Assembly: GCF_963678975.1 (NCBI RefSeq)
Contig: NC_089285.1
Coordinates: 7,984,694 to 8,048,693, forward strand
Length of the DNA: 64,000 nucleotides
From: Dysidea avara
Lineage: Eukaryota > Porifera > Demospongiae > Dictyoceratida > Dysideidae
Direction of reading: 5' to 3'
The first letter of the stretch is position 1. The number at the start of each line of letters is the position of its first letter. Below, piece after piece: positions 5,221-53,780 of the stretch. The notes below the pieces were generated by a model. It had not been told where the DNA came from, ran no database searches, and saw nothing but the letters and a program-made list of their open reading frames with translations. The translations under genes and the position numbers were made by a program.

Positions 5221-6097
5221 TGCACCACTAGCAGGGGCGGATCCAGAGTTTGGTAGGGAGGCGTGTACCATAACCAGTGTAGTAGGTAGCTACATAAAGC
5301 AGAAGCACAGAACCCTGGAAGCTAAAGGTATCTTTTATGTATCATGACTAAAAATTGTGTAGTTTTAAGGTTACGGGATACCATATAACATCTGCACACA
5401 CGTGTGAGCATTTACAGGTATTTTTCTACTGTACAGCAATGTATCACCTTATCGCTTCAATTATAGTTTTATACTGTATTCACCTTTGTGAGAAGCCGTT
5501 AACCCAAAGCATTCGCCGTAGAGAATCCAGTAGGGCGTGTCACAAATAATGAAAATCTTCTAGCCCAGAAACGGCGTACTCGAATCCCATTTCAATTATT
5601 TAAAGAGCTTTGCTAATTCATGATAATAACTGTGAGGGACTGACGAGAGCTTTTTCAAATCATCTACACTATCGCTCCCACCCAAGCTATAACGGCAGCT
5701 GCCGAAGCCAATCTATTCTTTATAAAATTTACACTCGACCACTCGAAGGTGACATTCAAAAATCGGCTCGTCTGTCCCTAGCCGTGAACTTATTTTAGTG
5801 GTCTCAACTTCTAAAATAAGAATAGCTACATCGACAATCGAAATTTTTGGCTAGAAAACTCACTGTGCAAGCCCAACCATTTTAACGCATGCGTTCCACT
5901 AATCTGGCGCGACAAGTAACCGCATCAGATGTTAATATTATTCATTAGCTATCATTGTGAGCTCTTCTTGTACGTGAACGATTTTCAGCTGTAGATTACT
6001 AGTGCTTTTACAGGTAAGACACAGTATTGCATGCAGCTATGTAATATTACAATCCATACACAATTTATATGATGCAATAATAAATGATGCTAGCTAC

Positions 6098-9000
6098 ATG
6101 GGCTGCAAAAAGAATGCCAGTACTCATGTATCCAGAGGGAAATTTAAGAAGAGAAGGCCTCCAGAAAAGCCATCACAAGTGGTCCCTATCAATCCAATGC
6201 CACCATTAAATGGTAGCAGAATAATCAAACTGGAACACCTTCAGGACCACCTACAAGTCATCACTAGCCATGTTGCTTCTTGCCATTCATCCTCCAGCTG
6301 CAGTTTTTCCAGTGAACCTGTCACAGTTAGAGAAGAACGTCGTGATGGTTTGTCATCGACACTTATTACTCACTGTCATAACTGTAGTGAAGACTTTACC
6401 CTCCAGACGTCATCCAAAGTGAAGGGTCTAACTGACAAACCTCACTGGGAAGCCAACGTAGCAGCTGTGTGGGGTCAGATGTCTACTGGTGGTGGTCATT
6501 CAACACTTGTGGAAACTATGGCGGTGCTTGGTGTACCTGTTATGAACAAGCGTTGTTTCATATCTACAGAAAGAAGAATTGGGGAATGGTGGTGTGCACT
6601 TCTGGAGGAATCAATGAAATTAGCTGGTCAAGAGGAGCGGGAGCTTGCTATAGCTAGGGGCACTACATGTCTGGGGGATCCAGCCATCACTGTCATACTG
6701 GATGGAGGTTGGAGCAAACGCACCCATAAGCACTCTTACAATGCCAAGTCTGGTGTGGCCATCATTATTGGGTATGAAACTGGGAAAATTTTGTTTATGG
6801 GAATCCGAAATAAGTATTGCAGTGTATGTGCCCTAGCCACCAATGGTAAACCACCTGAACATACCTGTTTCAAAAACTGGGACGGCTCCTCATCAGCAAT
6901 GGAGACAGATATCATTGTAGAGGGCTTCAAAATGTGTGTTCAACAACATGGTGTGAAGTACAGTAAATTTATTGGAGACGGTGATAGCTCCGTTCGGCAT
7001 GCTCTAGTCAGCAGTATTCCTTGGGGCTTTGCCATTGAGAAGATTGAGTGTGCCAATCATGCTGTCAAGTGCTTTCGTACACATCTTGAGACAGTAGTAG
7101 TTGACAATCCACGCTACAAAGGAAGGGGAAAGTTAACAGAAGCTATGCGTAAACGACTTACCAAGGCAGCTCGCTGTGCTATAGCGATGAGAAGCAAGGA
7201 ATCAGATAGATCGTCAGCTATTGCCAAGTTGCAAAAGGATTTGATGAATGCCCCATATCACTGTTTTGGTGGCCATTCTAAATGTAGCACAGACTTTTGC
7301 AAAACAGCTCAAAAGAGTAAGTCAACATCAAGTAGCTTCAGCAAGTCAATTGTCTCCAGTGTATCAGTTGTTTCCAGCCTGTCGAGTGTCTCCAGCGTGT
7401 CAGTTGTTTCCAGCCTGTCGTGTGTCTCCAGCGTGTCAGTTGTTTCCAGCCTGTCGAGTGTCTCCAGCGTGTCAGTTGTTTCCAGCCTGTCGAGTGTCTC
7501 CAGCCCATTGAGTTTTGTCTCCAGTCCATCCAGTATCTCCAGCCCATTGAGTCTTGTCTCCAGTCCATCCAGTGTCTCCACTCCATCAAGCCTTTTGAGT
7601 GTCTCCAGCCTATCAAGTTTCTCAGGTTGCTCCAGTCCATCAAGTGGCACCAATTCACCCCAAACACCAAGTGTTCCTAGGCCAACAGCATACAGTGATA
7701 GAACACCCATCAATAACCCCACCACATCTAGTACCTGTTCTGTTCCTCCTCCATCAAACTCCGTCCGTGATATAAGTCCACAAGATCTCTGTGAGCTGAC
7801 TATAGAGCATGAAGAGCACTGGGTAGATGCCACAAATGATGAATGCCTTGAAGAAGTACGCGATATTCCAGCAGCCAAGGAGAGTGTTATTGATCCAGCA
7901 ATGATCTGTGATATCCAACGAGCCCTCAGTAGGTTGGTAGGAAAAGCTCCAGAACTAATCGGTAAGGTAAATAGAATACAAACCATTATTTTACAACAGC
8001 TACGTATATTATAGGTAATTTCACAACTAACCTTGCAGAGAGTTGGATGCACATCCGTTCCAAGTTTGACGGTGGAAAACAGATTAACCGGATCCAAAGT
8101 GGTTCATGGCAGGGTCGTTGTGCTGGTGCCGGTCTCCGATGTAACATGGGACCATCTTGGGGACCAGAGGCATGGCAGGAGGCTGTAGGAGTTCCACCAT
8201 CCAAGGTGTTCCAAACTGCTGCGTCGAAGACGAAACAACAAGTGGAGCAGGATCGAAAACGGAAGGCAACCGATAAATCTAAACAGCAGAGGAAGAAAGC
8301 TAAATACAGTGCTGTTGACAACAGTCTAAGTTCAAGAAGAGCGTATGCCAGGTAATACACACACCACATACATACAAACTACACATGCACACCGTACCAT
8401 ATAAACACATTCTACATACAAGCACACACTAATTACAACTTACTAAAATGTTCTTTTTAGGCATGATGGTGGAGTTGATGTAGATGATGTTCCAAACAAC
8501 CTTCCTTCTTCTCATCTTCAGGACCTTGTGCTAAGGTTTTATAGAACCACCGTTGTTATCAGTAGCACCAAAATGAAGGAGATTGAGCTGCTTACTTCCA
8601 AGCACAGTGATGATGACCATGCTTCAGTGATCTGGAAGTCTGAAAGGAGACTAAGAATCACCTCAACCAATGTGAAGGCCATTTTTCAGCGACGTGCAAC
8701 CACACCAGCTGCACCTCTAGTAAAGCAGATGTTGTACAACAGTTTTAAAGGTAACGCAGCAACTAGATATGGATTGACACAAGAAAAGGCTAGCTCAATT
8801 AAGTACCTTGAATGGCTACGGACTCACTGTGGACCAGTAGGAGCCTCAGTAAACCAGAACTGTGGGCTCGTTGTTTCATCCACTTATTCCTGGTTAGCTG
8901 CCACACCTGATGGACTAGTGATTGATCCATCAGCTTCACCTCTACCACCAGAAGGCCTAGTAGAATTTAAAAATCCATACAGCTACAGGGATAGCCTGTT

Positions 9001-13242: not shown

Positions 13243-15640
13243 CAGGGCCGGGGGAACTGCCCCGGCAAGAGCCGGGCAATATTTTTAATTAGTATTTTTA
13301 ATTTGTGGTAATTATTACTTTATTTGAAAGAGCAAACCTACAATCGAATCGAATTACGTTTTTGGCATGCACGCGAAGGCTGCGGCAGCTCTGAACAGGT
13401 GCCCGTGGAAGTTGATTATAATGAAGACTTGTTTCTTCCAGTGTTGGGTGATAAACCCAATCACCCGAAGACTTTTGCTTTTCCGAAGAGGAAGTTTGGG
13501 GACAAAAAGCCGATCTATCGTTCCTTACAATCTTCGTGGTTCGATAAGTGGCCATGGATCACGTACAACGAGACAGAAGATAAAGCGTTTTGCTTTGTTT
13601 GTATCAAGGCAGTGCAACAAGAAAGAGTCAGGAATTGCTCACTGACCAGCAAAACATCGGATGCGTTTCTCACCCGCGGCTATACGTATTGGAAGGATGC
13701 CACTGGAGAGAAACATGGAGGATTTCCTCTTCATGAACGCTCCCATGTAAGTTTTTATTATTATTCATAGCTATATTGTAACAAACTGCTTTGTTTAATA
13801 CCGCACTAGTTTGAGCATCACTACATTCGTTTCTCTATTTTTTAATTTAGATGCACAAGTGGGCAGCTGATTTAGTCATGAACAAATACAAAGATATTGG
13901 TGAGCATTATGCTGCTGCTGGTACCAACCAAAGGGCAATCAACAGAGCTTACTTGCAAAAAGTTCTTCAAAATGTCATCTTTCTTGCCAGACAAGGCCTA
14001 CCATTCAGAGGCAATTGGATTCCATCAGAAGATGGCGGTGGTGGCTGTGAGAAGGAATCCAACTTTTACCAATTAATGCTGCTACGTGCAAATGACGATC
14101 CAGGGATGTTAGAAATAATGAAACGTAAAACAAACAAGTACACAGATCACCACATACAGGATGAGGTGATTAAGCTTTTGGCTCACAGTCACTTGCGTAG
14201 AATTGCTGCAGACATAAAGGCAGCAGGTTATTTTGCAGTGGAGGCAGATGAAGTCACGGATTCTTCAAATAAAGAGCAGGTTGTTGTGTGTATAAGATGG
14301 GTCGATGACAAGTTCGAAGCACATGAGGATTTTGTAGGCCTCCATCATGTTGATGACATAACTACTGCTACCATTGTTCATTTTGTCACTGATACTGTGC
14401 GCCGCATGACTCTTTCAATGTCAATGTGTAGAGCCCAGTGTTATGATGGGGCTTCCAACATGAAGCGAGTGGCATCTGACATTCAAAAACTTGAGCCACG
14501 AGCACTTTATTTGCATTGCTATGGCCATAGTTTAAATCTTGCTGTATCCGACACTTTGAAAAGTATTAAATGCATGTGTGATGCTCTCGATGTAGCGCTT
14601 GAAATATGCAAGCTTTTCAAATATTCACCTAGGAGAGATGCCATTTTTCACAAGTTTAATCAAGAACTCACACCACAAGCCCCGGGCATACGAAACCTTT
14701 GTCCAACCCGTTGGACTGTGCGTGCTTTATCCCTTGAGAGCATACGCATCAACTATTCTGCTTTAGAAGCAACGTGGGATGAAGCATTAGAAGTTTGCTC
14801 ACAATCAGAAATAAAGGCTAGAATAAATGGAGTTCGATCAAAAATGAAAGGTTTTGATTTTTTGTTTGGTCTTTTGTTAGGTGAGCGGATTCTAAAGCAC
14901 ACCGACAATTTAAGCAAAACTTTGCAAGCTACAGCCATGTCAGCAGTAGAGGCTTATAGTGTGGCCAAACTATGCATAGAAGTTTTCAAGAAAATTCGAA
15001 CAGATGACGATTTTGATTTGTTTTGGGAACTTGCTAAAACTACCCAAAACTCATTGGAAGTCAAGATCCAACCTTACCTCGTGCTCGCAAATGTCCTAGA
15101 CGTTATGAAGATGGCACTGCTGAACCTTATCACCCTCCTGATGTTAAACAGCATTATAAGCAAATATACTTTCGAAGTGTTGATTCAATCATTACTACAA
15201 TTGAAAATCGTTTTCAGCAAAAGGATTATAAAACATACTCAACATTAGAGCAGCTTATTATTAAGGCTGCAACTAAGAAAGACCATTTGCAGGAGCTCAA
15301 TGAAGTGGTGTCTTTTTACGCATCAGATTTTAGTAAATCTGAACTTGAAACTCAACTTGAGCTACTTGGACAAATGAAAATTGCAGTTAGTGGCTGTCAC
15401 CTACAATTCTGTGACATTCATAAATGTTTTCAATCTTTGCCTCCAGCACAGCCATCTCTGTTATCACAAGTGTCTTTGCTTGTAAAGCTGATTGCTTTGA
15501 TGCCAGCCACCAACGCTGTTTCAGAGAGAAGCGCATCATTTGGGAGGTTGCAGAAAATATGTGACCGGATTTGCGAAAAGGTACCTTTTTTGCACATTTT
15601 TCAAAACCTGTTTTTTGTTATTAAAGCATTTGTATAATCA
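13243..15640 (+). pseudogene. ZMYM1-like hAT transposase (TTF zinc finger, DUF4371, hAT dimerisation)
   Basis: A probable hAT end (cagggccgggggaactgccc) starts at 13243. Exon 1 runs to 13746 and exon 2 starts at 13851; the 104-bp intron is gtaagt...ttag, phase 0. Exon 1 has the TTF-type zinc finger (YRSLQSSWFDKWPWI, KAFCFVCIKA). Exon 2 has the DUF4371/RNase H-like core: FAVEADEVTDSSNKEQVVV, AQCYDGASNM, YLHCYGHSLNLAV, NLCPTRWTVRA. After a one-base frameshift near 15070 the frame continues with CPRRYEDGT, YSTLEQLIIKA and the dimerisation motif TNAVSERSASFGRLQKI, ending at 15558. There the expected C-terminus is cut off by the start of another repeat (tgtgaccggatttgc), consistent with insertion at a TA. 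About 700 aa; probably dead. Confidence 0.8.
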
Positions 15641-24084: not shown

Positions 24085-25658
24085 GTCTTGATCTACTACC
24101 TAAGTGGAAAGCGTATTTGTAAAACCATGTTCTTATTTACACATGCAGTTGGAATAAAAAAGTACAAAGATTTGTTAACAGACTATATCCAATATGGTGT
24201 GTCCTCATGGATTCATGAAAATACTAAATGATTTCCAGCTAATTGTTGTATTTCTCTAGATAAAACTAAGCGTATTGTTCAATTTATTGAGAACATGGCC
24301 AGTATTCATGCACTACACGGCTGCCTGGTCAGTACAGCAATGAAAAGGTTCTGCTGCTTCCAACTCATATGTCCAAAAGGTTTGTGTATCGTGAATACTG
24401 CAGTCTGTGATGAGAATGAGGAAAGAGCAGTCTGTCGTCGAAAATTTGAAGACTTATGATCTGAAATACTTCCTCATGTGGCTACTATGAAACCGGCCAC
24501 TGATTTATGTGAGGTGTGTCAGAACAACATAGTGAAGATGATGCATTCTGTTAACCTTCCTGAAGGAGAAAAGTCGCAGAGCTTAAAAGAAGCAGAGCTC
24601 CATTTAATGCTTGCTAAACAGGAAAGAGAGCTTTACAACTCAGAATGTCTACTAGCTGTCAGTGAAATGAAGGCAACCTAAAGTTGTACATTTTAGCTTT
24701 GATTTTGCCCAGCAAGTCCATTTTCCAAATAGTCCACGGCAGGTAGGACCACTTTATTTCCTAGTTCCTCGTAAATGTCAGCTTTTTGGAATCTGCACTG
24801 AAGGAAAAGGACAGCAAGTTAATTATCTCAGATGAAAATGATAACCCTGGCAAAGGTGCTAATTGTGTAATTTCAATGCTACATGACTATTTAGAGCGGT
24901 ACACAACAGCTAACCAAGAAATTCTTCTTCATGCAAACAATGCAGTGGGACGAAACAAAAATAACGCAATGATTCATTATTGTGCTTGGAGGATACTTAC
25001 AGGTCGAAGTCTTAACATTAAGCTGTCCTTCATGATAGCAGGACATACAAAATTCAGTCCAGATCGGTTTTTTGGCCTTATAAAGAAAACTTACTGTAAT
25101 ACATCTGTTTATACCATGTATGACATGGAAAGGATAGTTATTAATTCTACTACTGGAGGACAAAATATTGCTTTACCTACAGTAGATGTACGCTCTGGGG
25201 AACGTAATGTGAATTGGTATAATTGGTCGGACTATTTGAACAATATTTTCCATGCTATTCCATCCATTCTGAACTACCATCACTTTACATTGGACAAATC
25301 AACACCTGGAATCGTGTCATTGCAAGAGTATATCAAGACTGACAAAATTTCATTTAGCATGTTAAAAAATGAGCCACAACAAGGTGCGACAGGTTTCCCA
25401 TCAGTTGTCACACCCACAGGATTGTCTGTGGAGAGACAGCTCTACCTGTATCAAAAAATTAGACCATACTGTGCATCTGAAGCTGACCTTACCTGTCCTA
25501 TACCTGCAATAGCTCTTGTTTCTAGTAAACCCTGCAGTGGTACTGCTAGCGGTGGATCAAAGAGGTCTACTACACTGTGTAGCCATTGTCGTAAGCCAGG
25601 CCATACAAAGACAGTACGAGGTGTAACAACTTGTCCAGAACTGACAAACAAGCAGTGA
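24085..25658 (+). pseudogene. DUF7869-type transposase-like gene, intronless copy with long intact 3' half
   Basis: Reads across several frame changes: YYLSGKRICKTMFLFTHAVG (24090-24150), then SEILPHVATMKPATDLCEVC and VNLPEGEKSQSLKEAELHL (24460-24600), QQVHFP-like residues, PLYFLVPRKCQLFGICTEG near 24750-24800. It then runs uninterrupted from about 24790 to 25658: DENDNPGKGANCVISMLHDY, LHANNAVGRNKNN, LSFMIAGHTKFSP, DRFFGLIKKTY, NWYNWSDYL, LSVERQLYLYQKIRPYC. A Cys/His cluster, CSHCRKPGHTKT...C, follows near 25576-25636. The introns seen in the 16361-19908 relative are absent here. An in-frame TGA is near 24458. The motif usually written HADN is HANN here, so a proposed catalytic Asp may be lost. 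Putative transposase; the nuclease role is inferred. Confidence 0.7.
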
Positions 25659-29400: not shown

Positions 29401-30487
29401 ATATCGCCTTTGGCTAGAATTCTCTGACCTGGTTTTTAACTCATCCAGTATCCCGCTATGCTGTATGGTAAACTGATCACTGCTGTTGCCAGAAAACCCA
29501 GGTGAAATATGTACGAAAACTCCAGTGAAAGTGTCAATTCAATATAAATATTTAACAGTAGTGTGACTTTTGTAGTCACTGTGTGACACTTTCAAGAGTG
29601 GTATCCACTTATTTAGGATCCAGGATACAGAGCTTTGCTCTACATTAAAACGGCAAGCTAAATCACTTTGTGAAAAGTTGTAGCGAAGTTTCATTAACAC
29701 AAGGAGTAACTTTTGGGATAGTGATAGTTCATCATTCCCTCTAGTATCTAGTGTTAACACAGGATTCAACTAGCAAAAGACACTCAATTACCTTTTGAGG
29801 AAGGCCAGTATACATTTGCACTTGGTAGTCATTGAGTAAACTTAAGTTGAGTCTTTGCACATGACTGTTGAAAGTGTCAATTTTCTGCTTCAGCTCCAGA
29901 ACCCCTGCACATAACTGGCTGTTTTCTTGCTCTAGTTGAACACACCTAGAAACAATACTTGTGTAACTAAGTGACTGTAATTCACAACTAGAGCTTGTGG
30001 GCTTACAACTAGAGCTTGTGGGCTCACAATTAGAGCTTGTGGGCTCGAGGCATGATACAGCATCTGTCCTTGAATCTACAGCATCATTTCTGGATGACTG
30101 TGTAAGATGCAAAATAGAGTTGCTAGCAGTAGGATCTAACTGAGCAGCTATTACTTGAGGGTCAATGCTCGAGTTCTCTATGTCATTACTTACAGGTGCA
30201 TGCACCGTCTCAATATCCACAACATCAAGACTGGACGACTGCAAGATGTATATTAGAGCTGCTAACTGTAGGATCTAACTCAGCAGTTGAGGGTCATGCT
30301 TAGGTTATTCATGTCATCATTTACAGGTGCATGCTCTGGTTCAATATCCAAGTCTGTAGTGTGGTAGAATCTAATTCAACAGTATTTCCATAGTGTGACT
30401 CATCACTATCATCACTTGAAAAATCATCATGAGCTGTTTCAGAATTTATTGCATGTGGATGCTCATCATGCTGTTCAGTGGTATAGT
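29400..30487 (-). pseudogene. DDE_Tnp_4 (THAP/IS4EU-like) transposase, main part
   Basis: On the minus strand from 30487 an open frame begins DYTTEQHDEHPHAI and has an acidic SSDDSDESHYG. Two copies of a ~200-bp segment follow. From 30244 the protein includes a 30-bp coding repeat (EPTSS.C/KPTSSSC), a coiled coil (VQLEQENSQLCAGVLELKQK), YQVQMYTGLP, and after a frame change LSLSQKLLLVLMKLRYNFSQ and FNVEQSSVSWILNKWIPLL (HTH_Tnp_4). Then SDYKSHTTVKYL and, further down, SGNSSDQFTIQHSGILDEL. A region normally holding the first catalytic Asp is missing between WIPLL and SDYK. The N-terminal THAP part lies at 36495-36910, beyond the inserted transposon. Confidence 0.6.
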
Positions 30488-31683
30488 CCACTGTCTTAGG
30501 GTCAAAATATGGACCCGACGTGCACTTCTGGCAGAAATCACCAAATTTAGCACAAATGACTATTTATATGTACTAATCAAATTCTGATATAGGACACACC
30601 CTTTTGTTTAATTAACACCCCTTAATTAGCATATTTGAATACACTAGACTTCAACTTATACTAGACTCCGTTTTCTACCCACAGAGTTATTAGAAACATA
30701 ATTTGCTTTGTTTCCATTAAACATTCACTAGGAAGTTCCTATTTAATACTCACCATAACACATGTGTTATAGTTTGTATCCGTTTTAAACAGTCCAATCA
30801 TGCAGCAGAATTGTTCCTAGCTATTTCTAACAGGTAAGTTACTATGGTATTTTAGTGTTACAGTGTGTATAGCCTTTAGCTATAACTTTTAGGATGGTTT
30901 TTTTAGACTTCACTTAAGTACTGGCTGCACTTTACAGTGTGATACCAGCCTTTCCTTACCTGGACCAACCTTAAACTTGCTGCACTGTATTTTATGTGTA
31001 GATTACATATGTCTTCAGCGGAAGTAAATTGGTCGCTATGTTGTCTCTGCCAAACCAATGCTAGCGGTGAGATGCTCATCATGCTGTTCAGTGGTATAGT
31101 CCACTGTCTTAGGGTCAAAATATGGACCCGACGTGCACTTCTGGCAGAAATCACCAAATTTAGCACAAATGACTATTTATATGTACTAATCAAATTCTGA
31201 TATAGGACACACCCTTTTGTTTAATTAACACCCCTTAATTAGCATATTTGAATACACTAGACTTCAACTTATACTAGACTCCGTTTTCTACCCACAGAGT
31301 TATTAGAAACATAATTTGCTTTGTTTCCATTAAACATTCACTAGGAAGTTCCTATTTAATACTCACCATAACACATGTGTTATAGTTTGTATCCGTTTTA
31401 AACAGTCCAATCATGCAGCAGAATTGTTCCTAGCTATTTCTAACAGGTAAGTTACTATGGTATTTTAGTGTTACAGTGTGTATAGCCTTTAGCTATAACT
31501 TTTAGGATGGTTTTTTTAGACTTCACTTAAGTACTGGCTGCACTTTACAGTGTGATACCAGCCTTTCCTTATCTGGACCAACCTTAAACTTGCTGCACTG
31601 TATTTTATGTGTAGATTACATATGTCTTCAGCGGAAGTAAATTGGTCGCTATGTTGTCTCTGCCAAACCAATGCTAGCGGTGA
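30458..31683. repeat. Tandem duplication of a 613-bp block
   Basis: 30458-31070 and 31071-31683 are direct, adjacent copies. I see one difference (ccttacctgg versus ccttatctgg near 30957/31570). Each begins gatgctcatc; the sequence after copy 2 begins gatgagg, so the junction shares gatg. The block holds about 30 bp of left flank, the left TIR, the presumed promoter and the first ~22 codons of the gene in the 31101-36506 element. Confidence 0.95.
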
Positions 31684-34600
31684 GATGAGGTGCCCAGCTC
31701 AAAGCAAGCAAAAAGATAAAGGTGCAGGATATGAATCAATATCAAATGCACTTTCACAATTCAAGGACAGCCACAGCTTACCAATAGATGTTCCTGCTTT
31801 CATTGCAAACGATGTGAATCTTGAAGAGACTTTAATGGAGAACAGTGCAAAATTTCATAAAGCTTGTTTGAACAAGCTCACTCGGTTAAACAGAAAGGGA
31901 AAATGACCTTATACTACAGTTGAGGAACCAACACATGCAAGTCCAGCGAAGACCAGACGATGCAGTGTAAGTCATGGCGAAGTTAACATTTGTCTATTTT
32001 GTGGCATTAGTGATGGTCATTTGTTAAGCGTCTCTTCTACTGAGTGTGACCTTAGTGTGAGAGCATGGGCTACTGACTTGGAGGACTTTGATATGCTTGG
32101 TAAACTTACAAGGGGTGATCTCTTTGCACAAGATGCAGTGTATCACAAAGAATGCATGACGAAATACTACACTCGTCACAGGTCCTATCTGCGCAATAGG
32201 CGTAATGAGGGCAAGGTCACTCAATCTGAGCTGGAAGGTATTGCCCTTGCTGAAACGGTAGCATATGTGATTGAGGATGATAGTGATGGCCCTTATTATG
32301 TAACAGAGCTGGCTAATTTGTAAACAGCTAGACTAAATGAATTGGGTGGCGTGGTCCCTGACAGGATACATACAAGTCGATTTCAAGAGCGCATTCTGTC
32401 ACAAATACCGTGGATGAGTGGTCAAATGTCTGATAGAAAGCTTTACATTGCATGTGAAAGTGCAATTGGAAAAGCTGCTGCTCGTGAGCTAAATCAGACT
32501 CCAGATCAAGATGCTTGTAACATGGCTCGAACAGCTATTCACCTCAGGGAACAAATCTTTGACCTTCAACAAGGGTTTAGTGGTGAATTTCCAACCAATG
32601 TACAGGAGGAGTCAGTTCCTCCAGTTTTGTTATCCTTTATTGGCATGTTGTTGTGTGGCCCTTCAGTGAAAGATAGCTCGAATAGGGAAGTTGATGACAG
32701 GAAGTCTGTGGCATTAGCAATTGCTCAGTTGTTGATCTACAATGCTGTGAAGAAGAAACCAACCAAATCAGTTACTAACATCCGACACAGAGTTGAAAGG
32801 GAGACACCTCTTCCAGTTTATGTTGCATTAAAAGTATATGCTGCTACAGAACACTCGGAAGAAACCATAAACAAGTTACATGAACTTAGGGTGTGTGTAT
32901 CTTACGCTCGAGTGAGAGATATCTCCAGGATAATGGGAAATTCTGTTGTCAAGATGTTTGAGGCAGAAGGTGCACCTTGTGGGCCAACTCTGAGAAAGGG
33001 GTTGGTGACAATTGGCAGTGCAGATAACATTGATGTTAACCCAACTAACCGTGATGCCAAAGATGCCTTGCATGGTACTGGATGTGCCCTTACCCAACTT
33101 CCAACCGCCACCAGCACAGGTACTGTAAGGAGTGCGGAGCTTTACCGTGATGCTGCTCTAGGTCTGTCTAGCATTGCTCAGTTACCAGGGTTTTACACAA
33201 GCATAAAGGAAGTGCAAGTCTCTACTGAAAGTGTCCCTTTACCAGCTGTTACTGGACCTTGTAGGCCACCAGCACACGTTTCCATGTCATCACCACCTGC
33301 TCTTTCCCAAACTTCTGACTCTACAGAATCAATGCTCCTGACTGCCAATAACCTGCTACCATCAGGAGGTGCAACCCCATCCAGTTCAGTAGAAGAACGC
33401 TGGGTTACACATGCACAGTCAATTTTTGAGAAGGATAATTTCAGCCAAGGTGACACTGTTTCATGGGCAGCTTTTTGCGCTTCCAATCAGTCACTAATGG
33501 ACCGTCTACCTTGTATCACTTCAATGCTCCCAATCTTCCGAAACAAAGCCAGTACTTCCCCAATGATTTACCATGCCATGTCAGTTATCCAACGAGCAAC
33601 TGAGAAATTGAACCCTGGGCAGACACCAGTGATCACGCTAGACCAACCACTCTATGCAATTGCCAAAGGCATTCAGTGGGACCAAAATACAGAGTTCAAC
33701 GAAGATAACTATTTAGTGTTCTTGGGCCCACTCCATTCAGAAATGCTCCTTCTGAAATTGCTTGGTGACTGGCTTCGAGATAGTGGTTGGATAGCAATTC
33801 TCATTGACGCTGAAGTGACTACACCAGGTCGGGCTGAGGCAATGCTCAAGGGTTCACATGTCACAAGGACACGTTACACACATCAGGTCACAGCCTTGTC
33901 ACTTTCAATCCTGAGAAGGGAAGCATACACAAAGTACACATGTGAGTGCCAGGAGAATGCGGATGAACCTCTACCATTCATTGAATGGTGCGCCAAGATG
34001 GGAGGAACATTGCCTCAATTCAAATACTGGCAGACAGTTTATGACATGGAGATGCTACTTCTGCGTTTTGTACGCTCTATTCGTGTTGGTGACTTTGATC
34101 TGTACGTGAGGACGTTGGATGAGGTTGCAGATTGGGCATTCATTCTTGATCACTACAATTATTCTCGCTGGCTTCCAGTTCATGTGCGTGATATGTTGAA
34201 CCTAGAGTACAAACACCCAGATCTTTACAAGCAGTTTGATGATGGTTTCTTCACTGTTGCCAAGACAAACAATCCATTTTCCTTGATTGGATTTGACCAT
34301 AACCATGAGCAGCTGAACAAGGAACTGAAAATGCATCGTGGGAATCTCAATCTTGGTGATGAGTGTGTATTTACAGAGTGGTCTGTGGCAGGACCAGAAG
34401 TTGCACGAGTGATTGCAGAGTTTGAGGCTGGCATGACTTCAAGCAAGCGCTCCATTCCCAAGCATCATGACCAGAGTGCAAGTGTCCAAAACAGATTTGC
34501 CGCAGATACCAAGGCACTTGTTACAGCATTCCAAGAAGTGAGGAATCCTTTTGAGGAAGACAGTGATGAAATCACCATCCTTGATACCAAGGAGGTTATG

Positions 34601-36506
34601 TCAGATGAGGTTGCTCGAAGTGTCATGTGTGCTCATGAAGAGGGGAAAAAGCAACATTCAGCCTTTGTGAAAGAGCGCCTGGAGTCTCAAGCTGTCTCCT
34701 TGCACGAGCCCATCAAGAAGAACAATCTCTCTTCCCAGCAATAGACACAAAACACGAATACGCAAGAAGCATGTGGACAGCACAAAAGATGACATGCACT
34801 TACTTGGGCAGCTCTACATCTCACTGCAAGCCAGAGAAGGCCATGCCGACAGCTTGTTTGAAGTTGAAAACCTCGATGCACCACCATCCTTGTCCAAGAA
34901 TGGCAAGCTGAGGAGTGGACAAAAGTCTGACCTGGTCTCATGTCTGCAAACAGACTCACTGCCTGACTTTGGTGAAGCGGATGTTAAACTCATTGATGGT
35001 GCAAACATGGTTCATGGATTGGGATCAGATAGGAGCATAAAAACATTCCATGACTATGCTGAGAAGAAGGTGATTCCATTCATCAAGCGGCATCTGATCA
35101 CTGCTGGACGTGTTGATGTCATCTGGGACGGGTACCTCTCTGACAGCCTGAAGACAACAACTAGAGAGAGCAGGGGAGCTGGAGTGCGACAGCGCTTACG
35201 GAGTGATGGAAAGTTCCCAAAGAACTGGAGCAGCTACCTTCGCAATTCAGCAAACAAGACTGAACTGTTTCAGCACCTATCAGGAGTGATTGCCCAGTCT
35301 ACCTTTGATGAGGGGAAGGTTGTCTTTACAACATTTGACACAACTGTTCACAGAAATCCTTGTGCTGATGATGACATGATTCGATCTGAGTATCCTCTCT
35401 CTCCATGCAATCATGAGGAGTTTGATACAAGAGTAATGTTGCATGCAGCAAATACAGCATCACAAGGATACAAGCGTATCCTAATCATTGCCAATGACAC
35501 TGATGTTGTTGTCCTAGCTATTTCTTTCTTCAACGAGATTGGTGCAGAGAAATTATGGGTGACATTTGGAAAGGGCAAGAAGATGAGATACATTTCCATT
35601 CACGATATTTGCAGTGCCATGTCTCCTGCAAAAACGCGTGCTCTTCCTGGTTTTCATGCCCTTACAGGGTGTGACAACACATCTTTTTTTCTGGAACAGG
35701 AAAGAAATCGGCATATCTCAAGTGGGCCGCCACAAGACCAGAACTCACAACAGCATTGTGCCACCTGATGGAAAGGCCCCTCACACTCCCATCAGAGGAT
35801 ATCAAAGTCTTCGAGAGCTTTGTTGTCTCTTTGTATTCTGCAACCTCTTCCTTGACTGAAGTCAGCAAAGCACGCCAGCAAATATTTGCCCAGTCATCCC
35901 GTACATTTGAATACCTACCACCAACCAAGGCAGCTCTGATAGATCACATAAAGAGAGTGACTTATCAAGCTGGGTATGTATGGGGACAATCTCTTGTGGC
36001 GGAACAAGTCTTACCTAATCCAGGCTCATGGGGATGGGTTGAGTCGGAGTGTGGGTGGGAACCTTTTTGGACTCCCCTTCCTCAAGCAGCAAAGGCTCTG
36101 CAAGAGCTGGTTAGGTGTGGGTGTACAAAAAGCTGTTTAGGAAAATGCTCCTGCTATAAGAAAGGTCTAGTGTGCACAGCCAGATGTAAATGTGGAGGAA
36201 CATGTTATGGGCAGCCGCGCGAAACTACATCATCTACTAATTAACTTTGTGTCCATTTACAGTTATAGATTATCATATGACCTTCAAAATATTTACCATT
36301 ACTGTATGAAAGCTACAGAACAAGTTCTATTACAATAGTGAAAACAAATTAAGTATCAAAACGGTGGTATTATGCAAAATGCATGTTAATTAAACACAAG
36401 GGGCGTGTCCTATATCAGAATTTGGTTAGTACCTATAAATGGTCATTTGTGCAAAATTTGGTGATTTCTGCCAAAAGTGCACATCAAAAACCCTAAGACA
36501 GCAGAC
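31101..36506 (+). mobile_element. DNA transposon with ~125-bp TIRs, Academ-like (tentative)
   Basis: Left TIR 31101-31230 (and its duplicate at 30488-30617) matches right TIR 36383-36506 in inverted orientation at roughly 90%, apart from a ~10-bp length difference near the tip. Shared words: tggcagaaatcaccaaattt and aattctgatataggacac. The possible 4-bp TSD is tagt (31097-31100 or 30484-30487, and 36507-36510). It encodes one large protein with a PIN/XPG-like domain and a CXC domain. XPG-type nuclease domains are known in Academ transposons, hence the tentative name; I cannot confirm it. Confidence 0.75.
31607..36244 (+). pseudogene. Large TE protein: PIN/XPG-like nuclease plus CXC zinc domain, two stops and two frameshifts
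   Basis: About 1545 residues. ATG at 31607; N-terminal Cys pair and CPAQSKQKDKGAGYESI. The same frame runs to 34744 across TGA (31904) and TAA (32321). Landmarks: ICLFCG, YHKECM, ERETPLPVYVALK, CGPTLRKGLVTIGSADNIDV, DALHGTG, LPGFYTSI, LNPGQTPVITLDQPLYAIAK, WDQNTEFNEDNY, RTRYTHQVTAL, YNYSRWLPVHVRDM, WSVAGPEVARVI. After a frameshift near 34730: PPSLSKNGKLRSGQKSDL, then the nuclease-like part with LIDGANMVHGL, VDVIWDGYL, CNHEEFDTRVMLH, ANDTDVVVLA and GFHALTGCDNT. The acidic residues are placed as in PIN/XPG nucleases. A T7 run near 35690 holds the second frameshift. The end is a CXC domain (CGCTKSCLGKCSCYKKGLVC). From memory the same layout is widespread in cnidarians and fish; no function has been shown to my knowledge. 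Confidence 0.75.
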
Positions 36507-36910
36507 TAGTAGTAAAATGTACATTTAAATCTTCACCAGTACTGGTGCCTTTAGGTCTTTTAGTTACTTTCTTTGCTCCGACAGTTGATTTCTTTCTCTT
36601 ATGTGCTGGAGGTGGAGTTGGTGCTGGAGGTGCAGGTAGAGTTGGAGTAGAAGAACTGGGCCTCTTAAAGTGCACTGGAACAAGGTCTTTATTCCTTTTG
36701 CTTGGTCCCTTATAGTCTATGTAATGCACATTGAAAATAACTGTGTCTAGCTGGCAGCCACTTGGTTCTACCTGGAACCTGCCTAGTGATGTTAATTCTT
36801 TGAATCACAGCTCGTTTGACTGGCATGGGGATCTTATTTATGGTGTGGAGGGTTAACAATTCGGGCTTTGGGCAGCCATGGATCTGCAGCACAGGGCATC
36901 CACAGAGTCA
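36495..36910 (-). pseudogene. THAP-like DNA-binding domain, probable N-terminus of the split DDE_Tnp_4 gene
   Basis: The minus strand reads HGCPKPELLTLHTINKIPM, VKRAVIQRINITRQVPGR and FQCALH (Cys...Cys-x2-His order), then after one frame change DYKGPSKRNKDLVPVHF, matching the end of a THAP domain (box like AVPTIF). A Pro-rich and then a basic segment follow (KRKKSTVGAKKVTKRPKG), ending against the right TIR at 36506. THAP plus coiled coil plus HTH_Tnp_4 is the standard order in one transposase family, so this piece and 29400-30487 fit as two parts of one gene. The conserved Trp of THAP is not seen. Confidence 0.5.
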
Positions 36911-37670: not shown

Positions 37671-39480
37671 ATGTCAGACGAACTCGCGAAGAAGAAGAGG
37701 ATAACAGGAGGTCATAAAGCCTCAGCTACTAAAATAATGCAGCAAATCAGTGAACATGTAAGAAGTGAGACTTCAGATGAAACAAAACTAGCCTGCCTGA
37801 AGCGGGCATTAAATGAGAAATTCACAACCATCAAAGCACTTGATGATGAGATTAGTGGATTAATTGAAGATGAGAGTGTAGTTGAGGATATTGACACAGC
37901 AGATCAATTTAAAGAGACAAGTTTCAACTCATTGTTTTCTATAGACCACCTCATGGAGAAGCTCAAGATAAAAGAACCCTGCACCCAGGGTCCCCACTGC
38001 CCACAGTCAGACACATGTTAAACTTCCTAAGCTGCATCTATGCTCATTTTCAGGAGATGTCACTGAATGGACTGGCTTTTGGAATCTTTTCAGTCAGCTG
38101 TCCATAATAGTGATGAACACCGACATAGAGAAGTTCAATAACTTAAATTCACTGATAGGGCGTACTGCTAAGGAGGCCATCTCAGGGTTTTCACTAACCG
38201 CCAGCAATTACCATGAAGCTATCAGAAACCTTCATCGACGATTTGGAAGCAAACAGCAAATCATTGACAAACACCTTGATGTCCTGTTTTCTGTGGACCC
38301 AGTCCATACCAGCAATGTCCGTGGGCTGCGACATTTGTTTGATACAGTTACTTCACACATAAGAAGCCTACAAGCACTAAAGGTTCAGCCCACAACATAT
38401 GCAAACACATTCTGCCCGAAACTTTTGAGCAAGCTTCCTCATGAACTAAAGCTTATTGTTAGCAGAAGCCTGTCAGATGATCAGTGGGATCTGGACCTGA
38501 TGTTGACTGCAATTGAAAAGGAACTAACTGCGCGGGAGCGAAGTGGCATGACAGAAGTTGGCCGCCAATCACAAGAAGAGAAACTGTCAACTGCCACTGC
38601 ATTTCTTTCAGGGAACTCGTCCAGTTCATCACCACCTTGTTGTTACTGTAGCCAACCTCATAGGTAGTCTCGCACTTTCTTTTTGTGTGGGCGTTTGGAA
38701 AAGTAGGGTCTGGTACACCTGCATTAAGAATTGCGTGTAACGTTCCACTGCAGTCAGGGTGAATGTTGATTGCTGCTGATTGGCGAAGCTCTAAACTTCT
38801 TAGACCTGAAAAAGCATCACGCGTGCCCTTCAGCTGCAACACAAGATAATGGTAATGCAGCCACACTTTTTAACAGGTCTAAGAAGTTTAGGGCTTTGCC
38901 AATCAGCAGCAATCAACATACACCCTGACTGCAGTGGAACGTTACACAGAATTCTTAATGCAGGTGTACCAGACCCTACTTTACCAAACGCTCACACAAA
39001 AAGAAAAGTGGCGGTCTGGCTACGCGAGACTACCTCATAGGCTGGCTTCATGTTAAACTGTTGAGCAGGTTGATGCTAGAAAACACATTTTGAGGAGAAG
39101 TGGTCGTTGCTTTATTTGTCTCAGAAGAGGCCACCTTAGTCGAGAGTGCAAATCAACAGGAAGGTGCAGAATGTGCAAGGGCTGGCACTACACGAGTATC
39201 TGTGACCATCCTATTACCGGTCCACGTGGTGGGAAAATTTCTGCTCAATCATCTCAGACTAGTATACCACCACTCAACACCAGCCATCTAACACAACTGT
39301 ACAGCCCATCACAACACAAAGAAACTTGACTGTGTCGACCCCTGCAGCTGCACAGACTACTTCACTCTCCACAACAGCACTAAATCCAACCGCTCCTACA
39401 TTTACTTCCCCACCAACATCCACTTCTCTGTATGTTGATGCCAGTAAGACAGTGTTGTTGCAGACTGCTTTAAGCCAAGC
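37671..39480 (+). pseudogene. BEL/Pao gag (DUF1759) with zinc knuckles, split by a MITE
   Basis: ATG at 37671 (MSDELAKKKRITGG). After a frame change near 38020 it reads VKLPKLHLCSFSGDVTEWTG and, past another near 38112, IEKFNNLNSLIGRTAKEAIS, HRRFGSKQQIIDKHLDVL, FDTVTSHIRSLQAL and LLSKLPHELKLIV: the DUF1759 gag-like domain. The frame meets the MITE at CCYCSQPHR (38664) and resumes at 39042 with one stop, then VDARKHILRRSGRCFICLRR followed by two CCHC-type knuckles (CFICLRRGHLSREC and CRMCKGWHYTSIC). Structural protein that packages RNA. Confidence 0.75.
38665..39032. mobile_element. Palindromic (foldback) MITE in BEL gag, 9-bp TSD
   Basis: 368 bp. Starts tagtctcgcactttcttttt and ends with the inverted counterpart gcgagacta. 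The arms are about 150 bp (shared words include accagaccctac and its complement, tcagcagcaatcaaca and its complement) around a ~60-bp centre. The 9-bp direct repeat cctcatagg lies at 38656-38664 and 39033-39041. A 9-bp TSD and long TIRs suggest a Mutator-like (MULE) or Merlin-type MITE. Skipping it and one TSD copy brings the gag frame back in register. Confidence 0.9.
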
Positions 39481-48961: not shown

Positions 48962-49969
48962 ATGCCGACGAAGGCCGAATTAGAACGTAAGGTAGCTGAT
49001 CTGCGACGACAATTACAAACTGCTACGGAAAAGGAACATGAAGCTCAAGGAACAATTTATGACCTTCAGCAGCAAATCACTGAGCAACAGATTAGATTGG
49101 AGGACGCTCTGAGGGAGCGTGATGCAGCGATGGAGTCTGCTACACAACTGGAAGTCGCCCTCAGTGACTTGTCACGTGAAGTTGATGGTAGAGTGCTGGA
49201 AGGAGTGGAAAATGTGCGTCACGCCATGTCAGTTGCTCATCAGAGAGAAGTAGATACACAGGCAGATCTGATTAGTATGTTAAAAGATAAATTAGCACTA
49301 TATGAAGGCATTCCCTTGGCGGGTGCTGGGCGAAATGATGACCCATACCCGTCACGTGATTTGCCTACTGTGCATGACAACAGCTATTCGGTTGCAACCG
49401 ACGTTAATAGCGAGGCCTCGCACGTTGTATCGACAGAGCTTAGACCAACGCCGGCTCCTCGAATAAAAAATTTACAAAAGCCGACGCCTGCGCCCCGTAG
49501 ACCTAAGGGTCGCGCCACGCCTCAGCTACCTCCGTTGCCTATGTTCGGAGGAGCAGATACGGACGACGGTGATGCTCTGCAGAGGTGGGTTAACAAATTA
49601 CAGCGCCATGCACAGCTTCAACAATGGACAGGTCATGAAGCCTTACTGCAATTTGAGCTTCATTTAGCAGGCAAGGCAGAACTGTTGTATGAAGTTCTGC
49701 CAAATGACACTAAGGTGAGCCTGGACACTGCAGTATCAGCATTGCGTGACCGTCTGCAACCTGTGCAGCATGCTGCTTTGGCTTCAGCACAATTGATGAG
49801 ACGAAAGCAAGGCACACAATTCTTTGAGCAGTTGTTTGAACGAAGCTATGGTAGTCGAGCTGGCATGGATAATGATTCTAAAGCCATACTGAAACGTGAC
49901 TTGTTTACCCAAGGACTGTTACGCAAGTGGCAAGAAAAAAATCTTACCATCAGCAGCAACTTTTCATGA
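48962..49969 (+). CDS. gag: Gypsy gag (capsid part)
   Basis: The ATG at 48962 (MPTKAELERKVADLRRQL) is chosen because the open frame upstream lies in the LTR. The first ~90 residues form a coiled coil (LRRQLQTATEKEHEAQ, LEDALRERDAAME). A Pro-rich linker follows (PTPAPRIKNLQKPTPAPRRP), then the capsid-like region: LPMFGGADTDDGDALQRWVN, WTGHEALLQFELHLAGKAEL, then ELLYEVLPNDTK. The frame ends at 49969, just past a run of seven A (49928-49940) where the pol ORF takes over. Neighbouring motifs (KWQEK then ILPSAATF) show that capsid coding simply switches frame here. Since the zinc knuckle lies after the switch, a one-base insertion in the A-run is likelier than programmed frameshifting at the usual gag/pol border. 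Confidence 0.85.
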   Translation: MPTKAELERKVADLRRQLQTATEKEHEAQGTIYDLQQQITEQQIRLEDALRERDAAMESATQLEVALSDLSREVDGRVLEGVENVRHAMSVAHQREVDTQADLISMLKDKLALYEGIPLAGAGRNDDPYPSRDLPTVHDNSYSVATDVNSEASHVVSTELRPTPAPRIKNLQKPTPAPRRPKGRATPQLPPLPMFGGADTDDGDALQRWVNKLQRHAQLQQWTGHEALLQFELHLAGKAELLYEVLPNDTKVSLDTAVSALRDRLQPVQHAALASAQLMRRKQGTQFFEQLFERSYGSRAGMDNDSKAILKRDLFTQGLLRKWQEKNLTISSNFS

Positions 49970-52900
49970 TGTGCTGTTCCAAGCCCGTGCAGCTGAAGAA
50001 CATGAACACACCCTGTCAGAACTGCATGGCACTCCACCGTTTAAGTCCAACTTGACAAACAATTCATCAGTACCACCAAAAAGAGCATATCGTCCTGCTG
50101 ACCGTGAGCTAGCTCAAACAACCTCCAGGTCATGGTCACGACCACAGGGCACTTGCTTTTCGTGCGGAAAACAGGGACACTACCAGAAGGACTACCTGCT
50201 GACCAAGCCACCACCAGATTCCACAGGACAATCGCCAAAACCACTTAATGCTATATCTGCACCTGCTACTAATACACAGCAAGCACAGCCAACCCGCCGT
50301 GAGCAATTGTGGAAAGAATTGACCAGCCTTGAATTTGATCACATTTCCAATTTGTATGCCAGTCAGGTAGAGTCTTGTTTACTTGGTACCAATGCAGTTA
50401 TACCATTACGCCTCATGGTACCAGCTACAGGAGTGCAGCCAAAATCCAATGATACAAGTTTGGCTCAAAGTACAACAGTCACTGCAACGGTCCACCTAGT
50501 TCATTCGACCCGTCTCCCAGGCAGAGCGGGCACAATTGTTGAAGTGCGTAGCTCACAAAAAATTCCTGCAGATAGACAACTGTTATTTGAGCCAGGTAAT
50601 GACATCCTCCAATCCAAGGGTCTTGCGGTACACAGTGGCTTAGTGGAATGCAATGAGCATGGCTCCATTCATCTATTGATTGAGAACCCTGAAGCAGAGT
50701 GTCAGGAACTTCCATGTGATGCTATAGTAGGCTGCTTATCAGAGTGTCATTTGACTGATTCGATAGACCTTGCAGGCAACAGTCCGGATGCACATACCCC
50801 ATGTTCATCAGTTCAGACCGTCTTAAGCAAGCTAGATGAGAGAGCTGCCCAGAGGAAGCAGCAGTTAGCAGAACTTATCCAAATGTCAGGAGATGGATTA
50901 ATAACAGAAGAAGCTCAATTGATGCGTGATCAAATCCTTTATTACCATGATGTATTCTCACTGGAAGAAGGGGAGTATGGAAAAGTAGATATAGTACAAC
51001 ATCATGTTAACACAGAAGCCCACCCTCCCATCAACCAACCGCTAAGGCGAATTCCATATGCCCACCGTGCTGAGATGCTCAAACTTGTCCAAAGCATGCT
51101 ACAGAACAACATCATACAGCCATCAGTCAGTCCATGGTCGAGTCCAGTGGTCCTTGTCAAGAAAAAGGATGGAAGTTTGTGGTTCTGCATTGATTACCGA
51201 CGATTGAATAGTATCACTCGTGGAGATGTCTTCCCAATGCCACGTATTGACGACATGCTAGAACAGTTACAAGGAAAGAAAATTTTTACCACACTCGATG
51301 CAAAGTCTGGTTACTGGCAAGTGCAGATGGATCCAGCCTCAAGAGACAAAACAGCTTTTCGGACCACCAATGGCTTGTATGAATTCCTAGTGATGCCGTT
51401 TGGGCTCTGCAATGCCCCGGCAACATTTCAACGGCTTATTCAACAAGTGTTGTCAGGCATGGGTGATGATAACCCTTTTTGTTGCACGTATATAGACGAT
51501 ATACTGGTGTTTTCAGATAGTTTGGAACAGCATGTGCAGCATCTGCAGCACGTCTTTTTGCGCCTACGAACTGTAGGCCTTTTACTCCATCCCAGCAAGT
51601 GCCGATTTGCAGAACGATCAGTAACCTACTTAGGTCATATTGTGTCACAGAATGGCATATCGCCAGACCCTGGTAAAGTTGATGCAGTCCAACAATTTCC
51701 CATTCCGACTACAGTTAAGGCTGTGAGGCAATTTTTGGGTCTTGCGAGTTATTACAGACGATTTGTGCCCAACTTTGCCAAGATTGCTGGCCCTTTATAC
51801 ATGTTAACGAAACAAAACATCCCATTTCAATGGACCATCAAGTCTCAGAACAGTTTTGAACATTTGAAATGTTTACTAGCTTCTCCACCTGTGTTAGCAT
51901 ACCCAAACTTCACTTCTACATTTTTCCTACACACAGATGCCAGTGGAGATGGCTTGGGTGCAATATTGGAGCAAGAAACTGATGGACAACTGCACCCATT
52001 GGCATATGCCAGTAGAACCTTATCTAAGCATGAAGCTAACTATAGTGTAACGGAATTGGAAGAGTTAGCTATTGTGTGGGCACTGCGACACTTTAGGGCA
52101 TACCTATTGGGGCACAAATGTGTAATCTATACTGATCACTCTCCACTGAAGGCTTTGTTGGGATCTCCTCATTCAAATGGACGCAGAGCTCGTTGGAGTG
52201 ACACCCTAGCTGAGTTTGACATTGAGGTACGCTACCGACCTGGGCGTACCAATAGTAATGCTGATGCTTTGTCCAGAGCTCCACTGCCCCAGACAGCAGG
52301 AGTCAAAGTAGTTAACACACCTAATAATGCCACTACTACAGCCCAGCCCAACACACCAACTGACCATGATGTTCCTTCCATGGGAGACCTCCAGAGACAA
52401 GATCAAGAACTGGCAGCGCGTATATTATATATGGAAACTGGAACCCTCCCAGATGACAATCGGGTTGCCAAAAAGCTGGTGCTAGATACTTCAAATTTTA
52501 CTGTATTGAATGGAGTGCTGTACTTCGTTGATCCTTCAAGTAAAAATCTCCGTCTAGCTGTTCCACAGTTATTGCGACAAACCCTTCTAGTAGAGTCACA
52601 TGCTGGTGCATTTTCTGGTCATTTTGCAGTACGGGGGCTTTACAAGAAACTCTGTAGACAGTACTGGTGGCAACACATGTATTCAGATGTTTATCATCAC
52701 TGCCGTAGCTGCTTAACATGTGCTTCCTATAATGGTTCTGGCAGACGACATCACCCTCCACTAAACCCTCTGCCTGTTGGTGCCCCTTTTGAGAGACTGG
52801 GAATCGACATAATGGAAATGCCCTTAACCCAAGATGGCAATCGCTATGTAATAGTTATGATGGATTACTTGACCAAATGGGTGGAAGCTTGTGCCATACC

Positions 52901-53780
52901 GGACCAATCCAGTGTAACTTTGGCAAGAGTCTTAGTTGACTATGTTATTTGTCGCCATGGTGTACCTAAAGAACTTTTATCAGACCGGGGAGCTAATTTA
53001 CTATCAGGCTTAATGCTGGAAATTTGCAACCTCACAGGAATGAAGAAAATCAACACTACGGCATACCATCCCCAAACGGATGGCTTGGTTGAGAACTTTA
53101 ACCGTACACTTCAAGCAATGTTAGCTAAGCATAGCAAAGCATTTGGAATGGATTGGGATAAACACCTTCAGCATCTTTTGTTTGCTTACCGTACAAGGCC
53201 ACATGACTCCACAAATGAGTCTCCCTTTTACATGATATATGGCAGAGATGCACGCTTACCTACAGAAGCTGCACTGTCCACTCCTCCCACTTTGCAAATG
53301 CTGGATGCTGGTGATTACAAAACAGAATTAGTCACTGGACTTCATGAATGCTGGCATATTGCCCACTCATCCATTAAGAAAGCTCAAGAACAGCAAAAGA
53401 AGTACTATGACCGCTATGCTAAAACTCCTAAAATACAGACCAATGATAGAGTAATGGTATTTATGCCACAGGAGACCAAACAGAAAGACCACAAGCTGGC
53501 TCTACTTTACCATGGCCCATTCCGAGTACTTGAAGTAAGAGGCAATTGTGTACTAGTCAGACCAGTTGACAAACCTGATGTACAACCTATTCTAGTGAGC
53601 TTGGATCGAGTCACAACATGTCCAGTGGATCTCCCTGATAAATCATGGCTTGGACCATTTGTTACTACTAAACACGTTTTCAAGAAATCTGTGGATTGTC
53701 AGAAATCACCTACAACACAAGAATCTCATCAACACACCCACAATACCCGTTCTAAAGTACGAGGACGTACTATTGACTGA
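49896..53780 (+). CDS. pol: Gypsy gag C-terminus plus Pol (RT, RNase H, integrase); protease deleted
   Basis: Order: capsid end (ILPSAATFHDVLFQARAAEE), zinc knuckle CFSCGKQGHYQKDY in which the fourth ligand Cys is Tyr, and a linker. FDHISNLYASQVES then joins directly to CLLGTNAVIPLRLMVP; relatives carry the D-S/T-G protease between these, and no DSG/DTG occurs anywhere in the ORF. RT follows: SPWSSPVVLVKKKDG, FCIDYRRLNSIT, TLDAKSGYWQV, MPFGLCNAPATFQR, YIDDILVF near 51489, YLGHIVS. RNase H: HTDASGDGLGA, VTELEELAIVWAL, YTDHSPLKAL, SNADALSR. Integrase: an HHCC zinc region (ESHAGAFSGHF, CRSCLTC) and a DDE core (LGIDIMEMP near 52798, LSDRGANLLSG, HPQTDGLVENFNR near 53088). No chromodomain. Stop at 53778-53780. 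RT and integrase look intact, but self-processing is lost, so mobility would need help in trans. Confidence 0.95.
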   Translation: MTCLPKDCYASGKKKILPSAATFHDVLFQARAAEEHEHTLSELHGTPPFKSNLTNNSSVPPKRAYRPADRELAQTTSRSWSRPQGTCFSCGKQGHYQKDYLLTKPPPDSTGQSPKPLNAISAPATNTQQAQPTRREQLWKELTSLEFDHISNLYASQVESCLLGTNAVIPLRLMVPATGVQPKSNDTSLAQSTTVTATVHLVHSTRLPGRAGTIVEVRSSQKIPADRQLLFEPGNDILQSKGLAVHSGLVECNEHGSIHLLIENPEAECQELPCDAIVGCLSECHLTDSIDLAGNSPDAHTPCSSVQTVLSKLDERAAQRKQQLAELIQMSGDGLITEEAQLMRDQILYYHDVFSLEEGEYGKVDIVQHHVNTEAHPPINQPLRRIPYAHRAEMLKLVQSMLQNNIIQPSVSPWSSPVVLVKKKDGSLWFCIDYRRLNSITRGDVFPMPRIDDMLEQLQGKKIFTTLDAKSGYWQVQMDPASRDKTAFRTTNGLYEFLVMPFGLCNAPATFQRLIQQVLSGMGDDNPFCCTYIDDILVFSDSLEQHVQHLQHVFLRLRTVGLLLHPSKCRFAERSVTYLGHIVSQNGISPDPGKVDAVQQFPIPTTVKAVRQFLGLASYYRRFVPNFAKIAGPLYMLTKQNIPFQWTIKSQNSFEHLKCLLASPPVLAYPNFTSTFFLHTDASGDGLGAILEQETDGQLHPLAYASRTLSKHEANYSVTELEELAIVWALRHFRAYLLGHKCVIYTDHSPLKALLGSPHSNGRRARWSDTLAEFDIEVRYRPGRTNSNADALSRAPLPQTAGVKVVNTPNNATTTAQPNTPTDHDVPSMGDLQRQDQELAARILYMETGTLPDDNRVAKKLVLDTSNFTVLNGVLYFVDPSSKNLRLAVPQLLRQTLLVESHAGAFSGHFAVRGLYKKLCRQYWWQHMYSDVYHHCRSCLTCASYNGSGRRHHPPLNPLPVGAPFERLGIDIMEMPLTQDGNRYVIVMMDYLTKWVEACAIPDQSSVTLARVLVDYVICRHGVPKELLSDRGANLLSGLMLEICNLTGMKKINTTAYHPQTDGLVENFNRTLQAMLAKHSKAFGMDWDKHLQHLLFAYRTRPHDSTNESPFYMIYGRDARLPTEAALSTPPTLQMLDAGDYKTELVTGLHECWHIAHSSIKKAQEQQKKYYDRYAKTPKIQTNDRVMVFMPQETKQKDHKLALLYHGPFRVLEVRGNCVLVRPVDKPDVQPILVSLDRVTTCPVDLPDKSWLGPFVTTKHVFKKSVDCQKSPTTQESHQHTHNTRSKVRGRTID

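Follow-up and report, generated by a model that had tools for sequence, protein, structure and literature searches.

The window, a 64,000-nucleotide stretch of the Dysidea avara genome (contig C14, positions 7984694-8048693), carries a transposon insertion at 30484-36508, in which a single transposon gene lies between terminal inverted repeats of about 130 bp. Its features, given as positions in the window, are as follows.

30455-31687, plus strand: left end, tandemly duplicated (621-column self-match, 99.7%)
30481-30483: left target-site duplication, GTA
30484-36508, plus strand: whole insertion, duplicated left end included, flanked by the 3-bp duplication GTA
31097-31230, plus strand: inner left terminal inverted repeat
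31622-36244, plus strand: transposase-nuclease coding region, broken in the window copy (start codon from our own reading of the sequence)
31622-32323, plus strand: N-terminal region with the conserved Cys/His pairs CCLCQ, FHKAC, CLFC and YHKEC, seen in the sequence
32324-34741, plus strand: candidate RNase H-like DDE core (from conservation and a borderline DUF6589 similarity)
33023-33025, 33641-33643 and 34307-34309: candidate triad codons D (in DNID), D (in LDQPL) and E (in HNHEQ)
34731-35768, plus strand: PIN/FEN-like nuclease, putative (from an 11-row alignment, acid spacing and a sub-threshold 5_3_exonuc_N match of the relative L089)
34995-34997, 35127-35129, 35415-35426, 35496-35504 and 35673-35675: nuclease acid codons D, D, E-E-x-D, D-x-D and D
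36113-36205, plus strand: CXC-like cysteine-rich tail (Pfam TCR, PF03638, below cut-off)
36380-36508, minus strand: right terminal inverted repeat
36509-36511: right target-site duplication, GTA
30321-30483 and 36512-36804, minus strand: pieces of a 151-codon frame in the flanks

Structure of the insertion and its coding region

The ends of the element were placed by comparison with other copies and lie at TAGT on the left, which occurs twice (31097 and 30484), and at ACTA at 36508 on the right. The left terminus reads TAGTCCACTGTCTTAGGG... at both positions, and the right terminus ...CCCTAAGACAGCAGACTA. The original prediction that inverted repeats bracket the gene was borne out, 31130-31217 and 36398-36485 being 91% complementary over 88 nt, while its bounds of 31101 and 36506 had to be moved to 31097 and 36508. 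It had also overlooked that the left end occurs once more, 613 bp further upstream, with a repeat (30517-30604) that likewise pairs with 36398-36485. The left 613 bp are tandemly duplicated (units 30455-31074 and 31067-31687) and the insertion therefore spans 30484-36508. A second GTA precedes the inner left end, at 31094-31096. The duplication probably arose after insertion, because the duplicated unit takes in some flanking DNA.

When the flanks were joined with one GTA kept, a 151-codon minus-strand frame (97 + 53 codons) spanned the join, against 16 and 9 codons in the two remaining minus frames. Since one plus frame of 84 codons is also continuous there, insertion into a coding sequence is only possible. 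The two pieces of the 151-codon frame matched no Pfam family.

Two in-frame stops (31904-31906 and 32321-32323) and two frame breaks (near 34725 and near 35690) interrupt the coding region, leaving the open frames 31556-31906, 31907-32323, 32324-34744, 34671-35768 and 35675-36244. What had been described as one large gene is thus one coding region that is no longer intact, and this copy can apparently no longer encode the full-length protein.

Other domains were matched elsewhere in the window. A DUF1759 domain lies at 37972-38664 (E 1.1e-25), which we take to be probably part of a BEL/Pao-type retroelement. Reverse transcriptase, RNase H and integrase domains share one 1,295-codon frame at 49893-53777, and a Mutator-like transposase (PF20700, E 3.2e-82) lies at 5978-8011. 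The DUF4371 and DUF7869 domains at 13851-15245 and 24765-25655 are perhaps further transposon remnants.

Copies of the element in the host genome

We searched the host genome (550.8 Mb, 108 contigs) for further copies. Two repeat searches recovered two-ended copies of the window family on contig C6, on contig C15 (two copies) and in the window itself, as well as a right end at another place on C14. The three additional two-ended copies, which the original prediction had proposed to look for, have the same ends as the window copy elsewhere in the genome, and the window inverted repeats are therefore above chance. Identity among the four two-ended copies is 99.22-99.43%. The element in the window comes from a cut-and-paste transposon that was mobile recently, and this copy of it is damaged.

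The nuclease part matched 113 stretches of the genome, window included, and one locus can account for several of these stretches; of 491 candidates, 112 were scored. Fifteen copies were fetched, namely the window, L040-L043 from its own family, and ten relatives (L044-L046 and L084-L090), eight of which were chosen for high score or long open frames and two (L089, L090) as distant. Both ends could be placed in 12 of the 15. These 12 elements, 5.0-6.1 kb long with the duplicated end excluded, each contain the gene, are bounded by inverted repeats with TAGT/ACTA ends and lie between exact duplications of 3 bp; their inverted-repeat arms are 67-94% identical, the weakest being those of L087 and L088. 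In the window family the boundary was chosen so that all four copies fit, giving the duplications GTA (window), TTT (L040), TGA (L041) and GTA (L042). The remaining family member, L043, is a right-end fragment with a match of 324 bp only. Among the relatives the duplications are GCA in L044, CAG in L045 and TGT in L046, and the joined flanks of L045 align across the junction, without a gap at that point, to a neighbouring repeat unit that is not interrupted. An end scan that itself demanded TAGT, ACTA and equal 3-mers succeeded in 5/5 of L084-L088 (CTG, ATA, AAA, TTG and TTA, respectively), compared with 2/60 overlapping window stretches and 7/200 shuffles as controls. The same scan placed neither ends nor duplications in the distant relatives (0/2). 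The nuclease of L089 and L090 is about 30% identical, with similar motifs.

Alternatively, the inverted repeats could be those of another, unrelated transposon into which a cellular nuclease gene had been captured, a reading to which the broken window copy and its duplicated left end lend some colour. In the eight relatives with placed ends, only 38-43% identical in the nuclease, the gene is enclosed by different inverted repeats particular to each relative, which still have TAGT at the terminus and 3-bp duplications beside them; capture is largely refuted by this arrangement and we consider it extremely improbable. The original prediction had itself named the gene occurring without these repeats as the observation that would speak against a transposon. 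No copy with both ends resolved shows this, because gene and repeats travel together in all 12. The transposon reading is supported by these 12 copies, in which the repeat ends and duplication length that it left to be derived are TAGT/ACTA and 3 bp.

None of the four two-ended window-family copies has one continuous open frame, the longest being 806-887 codons in three of them and 628 codons in L041. The frame break near 34725 is common to the window and L041 and absent from L040 and L042, which may reflect common descent or the movement of damaged copies in trans. Undivided frames were found in two relatives: that of L045 runs for 1,524 codons from stop to stop and is flanked by inverted repeats of 151 bp at 86%, and that of L046 runs for 1,479 codons, flanked by repeats of 99 bp at 94%. 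The frame of L044 (1,454 codons) is without the CXC tail.

The candidate DDE core and candidate nuclease block

The equivalents of the N-terminal Cys/His pairs are invariant in 3/3 full-length relatives, and this region perhaps binds zinc. In the middle of the protein the blocks DN-I/L-D-x-NP, FDQPL, GGLHIEM and DQAHEQNN are conserved, the window copy deviating in parts of the last three. Conservation and profile runs took 29 of 30 loci from the nuclease search (L017 was left out), and residues of the core are numbered here on the L045 protein. D669 is retained in 16/17 and E889 in 21/23 covering loci; D494 and D497 are covered by one locus only, besides 4/4 rows of a smaller alignment. We propose D494 or D497, D669 and E889 as a candidate catalytic triad, because all three positions recur in the distant L089 whereas E702 does not; L090 covers the last position only and retains it. 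The triad is a proposal, since other acids are equally conserved (D850 in 21/21 loci, E702 in 16/17).

A Pfam scan of seven proteins placed DUF6589 (PF20231) first for one of them, L087, with an E-value of 0.006, which is below the cut-off. Other Pfam scans of 5, 3 and 11 proteins did not match this family. One host copy of DUF6589 aligned around the last acid of the triad in a register that stayed constant, with a score of 29.7 against a 6-row alignment of the core. Shuffles gave a mean of 17.1 and a maximum of 27.3 (n = 150) and the reversed sequence 14.9, with controls at ≤22.6 for 12 FEN1 proteins and ≤21.9 for nine window frames; the score drops to 23-24 with a larger alignment. E-values of the size obtained for DUF6589 and for the exonuclease family described below arise by chance here, since the evidently unrelated CUB_CDCP1_2 reached 0.0095 for L044 and DUF269 reached 0.036. 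A relationship between the core and DUF6589 is accordingly suggestive and not proof. DUF6589 is itself repeated in the host (111 matched stretches) and is possibly an undescribed transposase family; the literature searched did not mention it by name.

No DDE or RNase H family was matched above cut-off in Pfam or PDB profile searches, and an AlphaFold model of 806 aa built without an alignment had a mean pLDDT of 34.9. The DDE fold suspected in the N-terminal 1000 residues is thus represented by conserved D-D-E candidates and by no family match above cut-off. These results leave some room for a different reading, in which the nuclease is the sole catalytic part, the first 1,000 residues serve for DNA binding alone, and the element is not of the DDE type. 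The borderline DUF6589 similarity and the conservation of acids outside the triad, such as D850, are in keeping with it. It is opposed by the retention of D669 and E889 across most covering loci, by the recurrence in L089 of the three triad positions and not of E702, and by the classing of Academ, to which we assign the element below, among superfamilies that encode a DDD/E transposase in passages of PMC9587614. On balance we find a nuclease-only enzyme rather unlikely.

The nuclease motifs named in the original prediction (LIDGANM, WDGYL, NHEEFDTR, NDTDVVVLA and TGCD) are all present in the window translations. In an alignment of 11 rows, nine of which reach the CXC tail, D58, D82, D121, D125, E216, E217, D219, D243 and D245 are invariant (11/11), and columns 303 and 446 are acidic wherever present. 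Seven acids fit the spacing of archaeal FEN1 (D27, D80, E151, E153, D172, D174 and D235) at a tolerance of 22 residues, a value that was not set beforehand and at which 5/20,000 random placements also fit; no fit was obtained at a tolerance of 10 or 15. For the nuclease frame of L089 the best Pfam match was 5_3_exonuc_N (E 0.025) over the EEAD...DTD block, followed by DUF269.

Profile comparisons did not rise above chance. The best FEN1 profile alignment falls in the expected motif register with a score at chance level, which was reached by 56/150 column shuffles and 45/100 block shuffles, and reversed FEN1 outscored the real profile (26.6 vs 17.4). A model of the XPG_I region, for which one of 12 archaeal rows (L067) was dropped for want of an anchor motif, scored no higher than 3.7 bits, where the top shuffle scored 3.9. 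Neither XPG_I nor 5_3_exonuc_N retrieved the nuclease loci when searched against the genome. For the transposon proteins no Pfam or PDB match exceeded the cut-off, the PDB profile searches returning weak matches only (HflX at E 0.082 and 0.19, and two at 1.7), and the AlphaFold model of the nuclease, again without an alignment, had a mean pLDDT of 31.9. No further relatives were confirmed in viral_contigs or genome_contigs. The nuclease is not addressed in the passages of PMC10799480, PMC4455052, PMC11071193 and PMC12730594, nor in those of PMC5718144. We regard a FEN/PIN type of nuclease as likely but unproved, and the putative DDE core likewise as supported but not proved. The CXC domain of the original prediction is visible as a cysteine-rich tail, which in the window copy scores 12.3 bits for PF03638, short of the cut-off of 23.5.

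Proposed mechanism and relation to Academ transposons

A protein of about 1,500 residues would bind the inverted repeats through its N-terminal Cys/His region, its CXC tail or both. It would cut at the TAGT ends and join them to the target with a 3-bp stagger, giving the 3-bp duplications. In the division of labour that we infer, cleavage and transfer of one strand would fall to an RNase H-like D-D-E core within the first 1,000 residues, and the other strand would be left to the FEN/PIN-like nuclease at the C terminus, for cutting or trimming. A more specific version can be offered tentatively, as a possibility well short of even odds: a two-nuclease transposase in which a DUF6589-related DDE core transfers one strand, a FEN/PIN 5'-nuclease fused to it trims flaps or cuts the strand that is not transferred, and the 3-bp duplication reflects the nuclease partner. 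The duplication length is tied to the partner in this scheme because the difference between Academ lineages, 3-4 bp with a nuclease and 9-10 bp with a helicase, hints at it.

Our main reading, to which we give a probability of about 0.82, is that the element is a cut-and-paste transposon of the Academ superfamily, from the nuclease-bearing AcademX lineage, with one protein of about 1,500 residues acting in two parts. We take the AcademX nuclease to be of the XPG type. Most likely the element represents a new family of a known superfamily and not a new system. The original prediction of a poorly described system was therefore right only in part, Academ being a recognised superfamily. No description of this particular transposon family was found in the literature searched, among the matches listed. 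The copies form a multi-copy set for Academ, with ends, 3-bp duplications, two unbroken frames and copies about 99% identical, and we know of no biochemical study of the superfamily. The set also allows testable predictions of the DNA-cutting acids and of the half of the protein in which they lie. If confirmed, a link to DUF6589 would be useful, this family having no described function in Pfam.

The placement in AcademX is made from published descriptions. An Academ-like affinity, as had been suggested, agrees with the description of AcademX in the relevant part of PMC10045372, where this lineage has target duplications of 3 or 4 bp and AcademH of 9 or 10 bp, lengths that are related there to the encoded nuclease and helicase, respectively. 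In our element the duplication is exactly 3 bp in the 12 of 15 copies that were resolved. Where AcademX encodes a nuclease, the element has a nuclease-like domain whose motifs and spacing fit and whose profile tests are at chance, and where Academ belongs to the DDD/E class it has conserved D-D-E candidates with a borderline DUF6589 similarity. The element length is close to that of Academ elements in bivalves, for which an excerpt of PMC10294476 gives a mean of 5,565 bp over 100 curated elements. Unlike AcademH, the element has 3-bp duplications, and no helicase family was matched in the transposon proteins by Pfam. A separate, unnamed superfamily might have come to an AcademX-like layout and duplication length by convergence, the likeness to Academ having been judged from published descriptions. 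Element length, duplication length and the nuclease-like domain all agree with Academ, and we hold convergence to be quite improbable.

Beyond Academ, the putative nuclease resembles FEN1/XPG and 5'-3' exonucleases in the order and rough spacing of its conserved acids. Past the last of these, G-C-D-T ... G-x-G-K-K aligns with the stretch of FEN1 past its last catalytic Asp. It differs from FEN1/XPG in its N- and C-terminal context and in a profile similarity that is not above chance. DUF6589 is alike in that the C-terminal part of the candidate core aligns with it around the last acid, below the Pfam cut-off.
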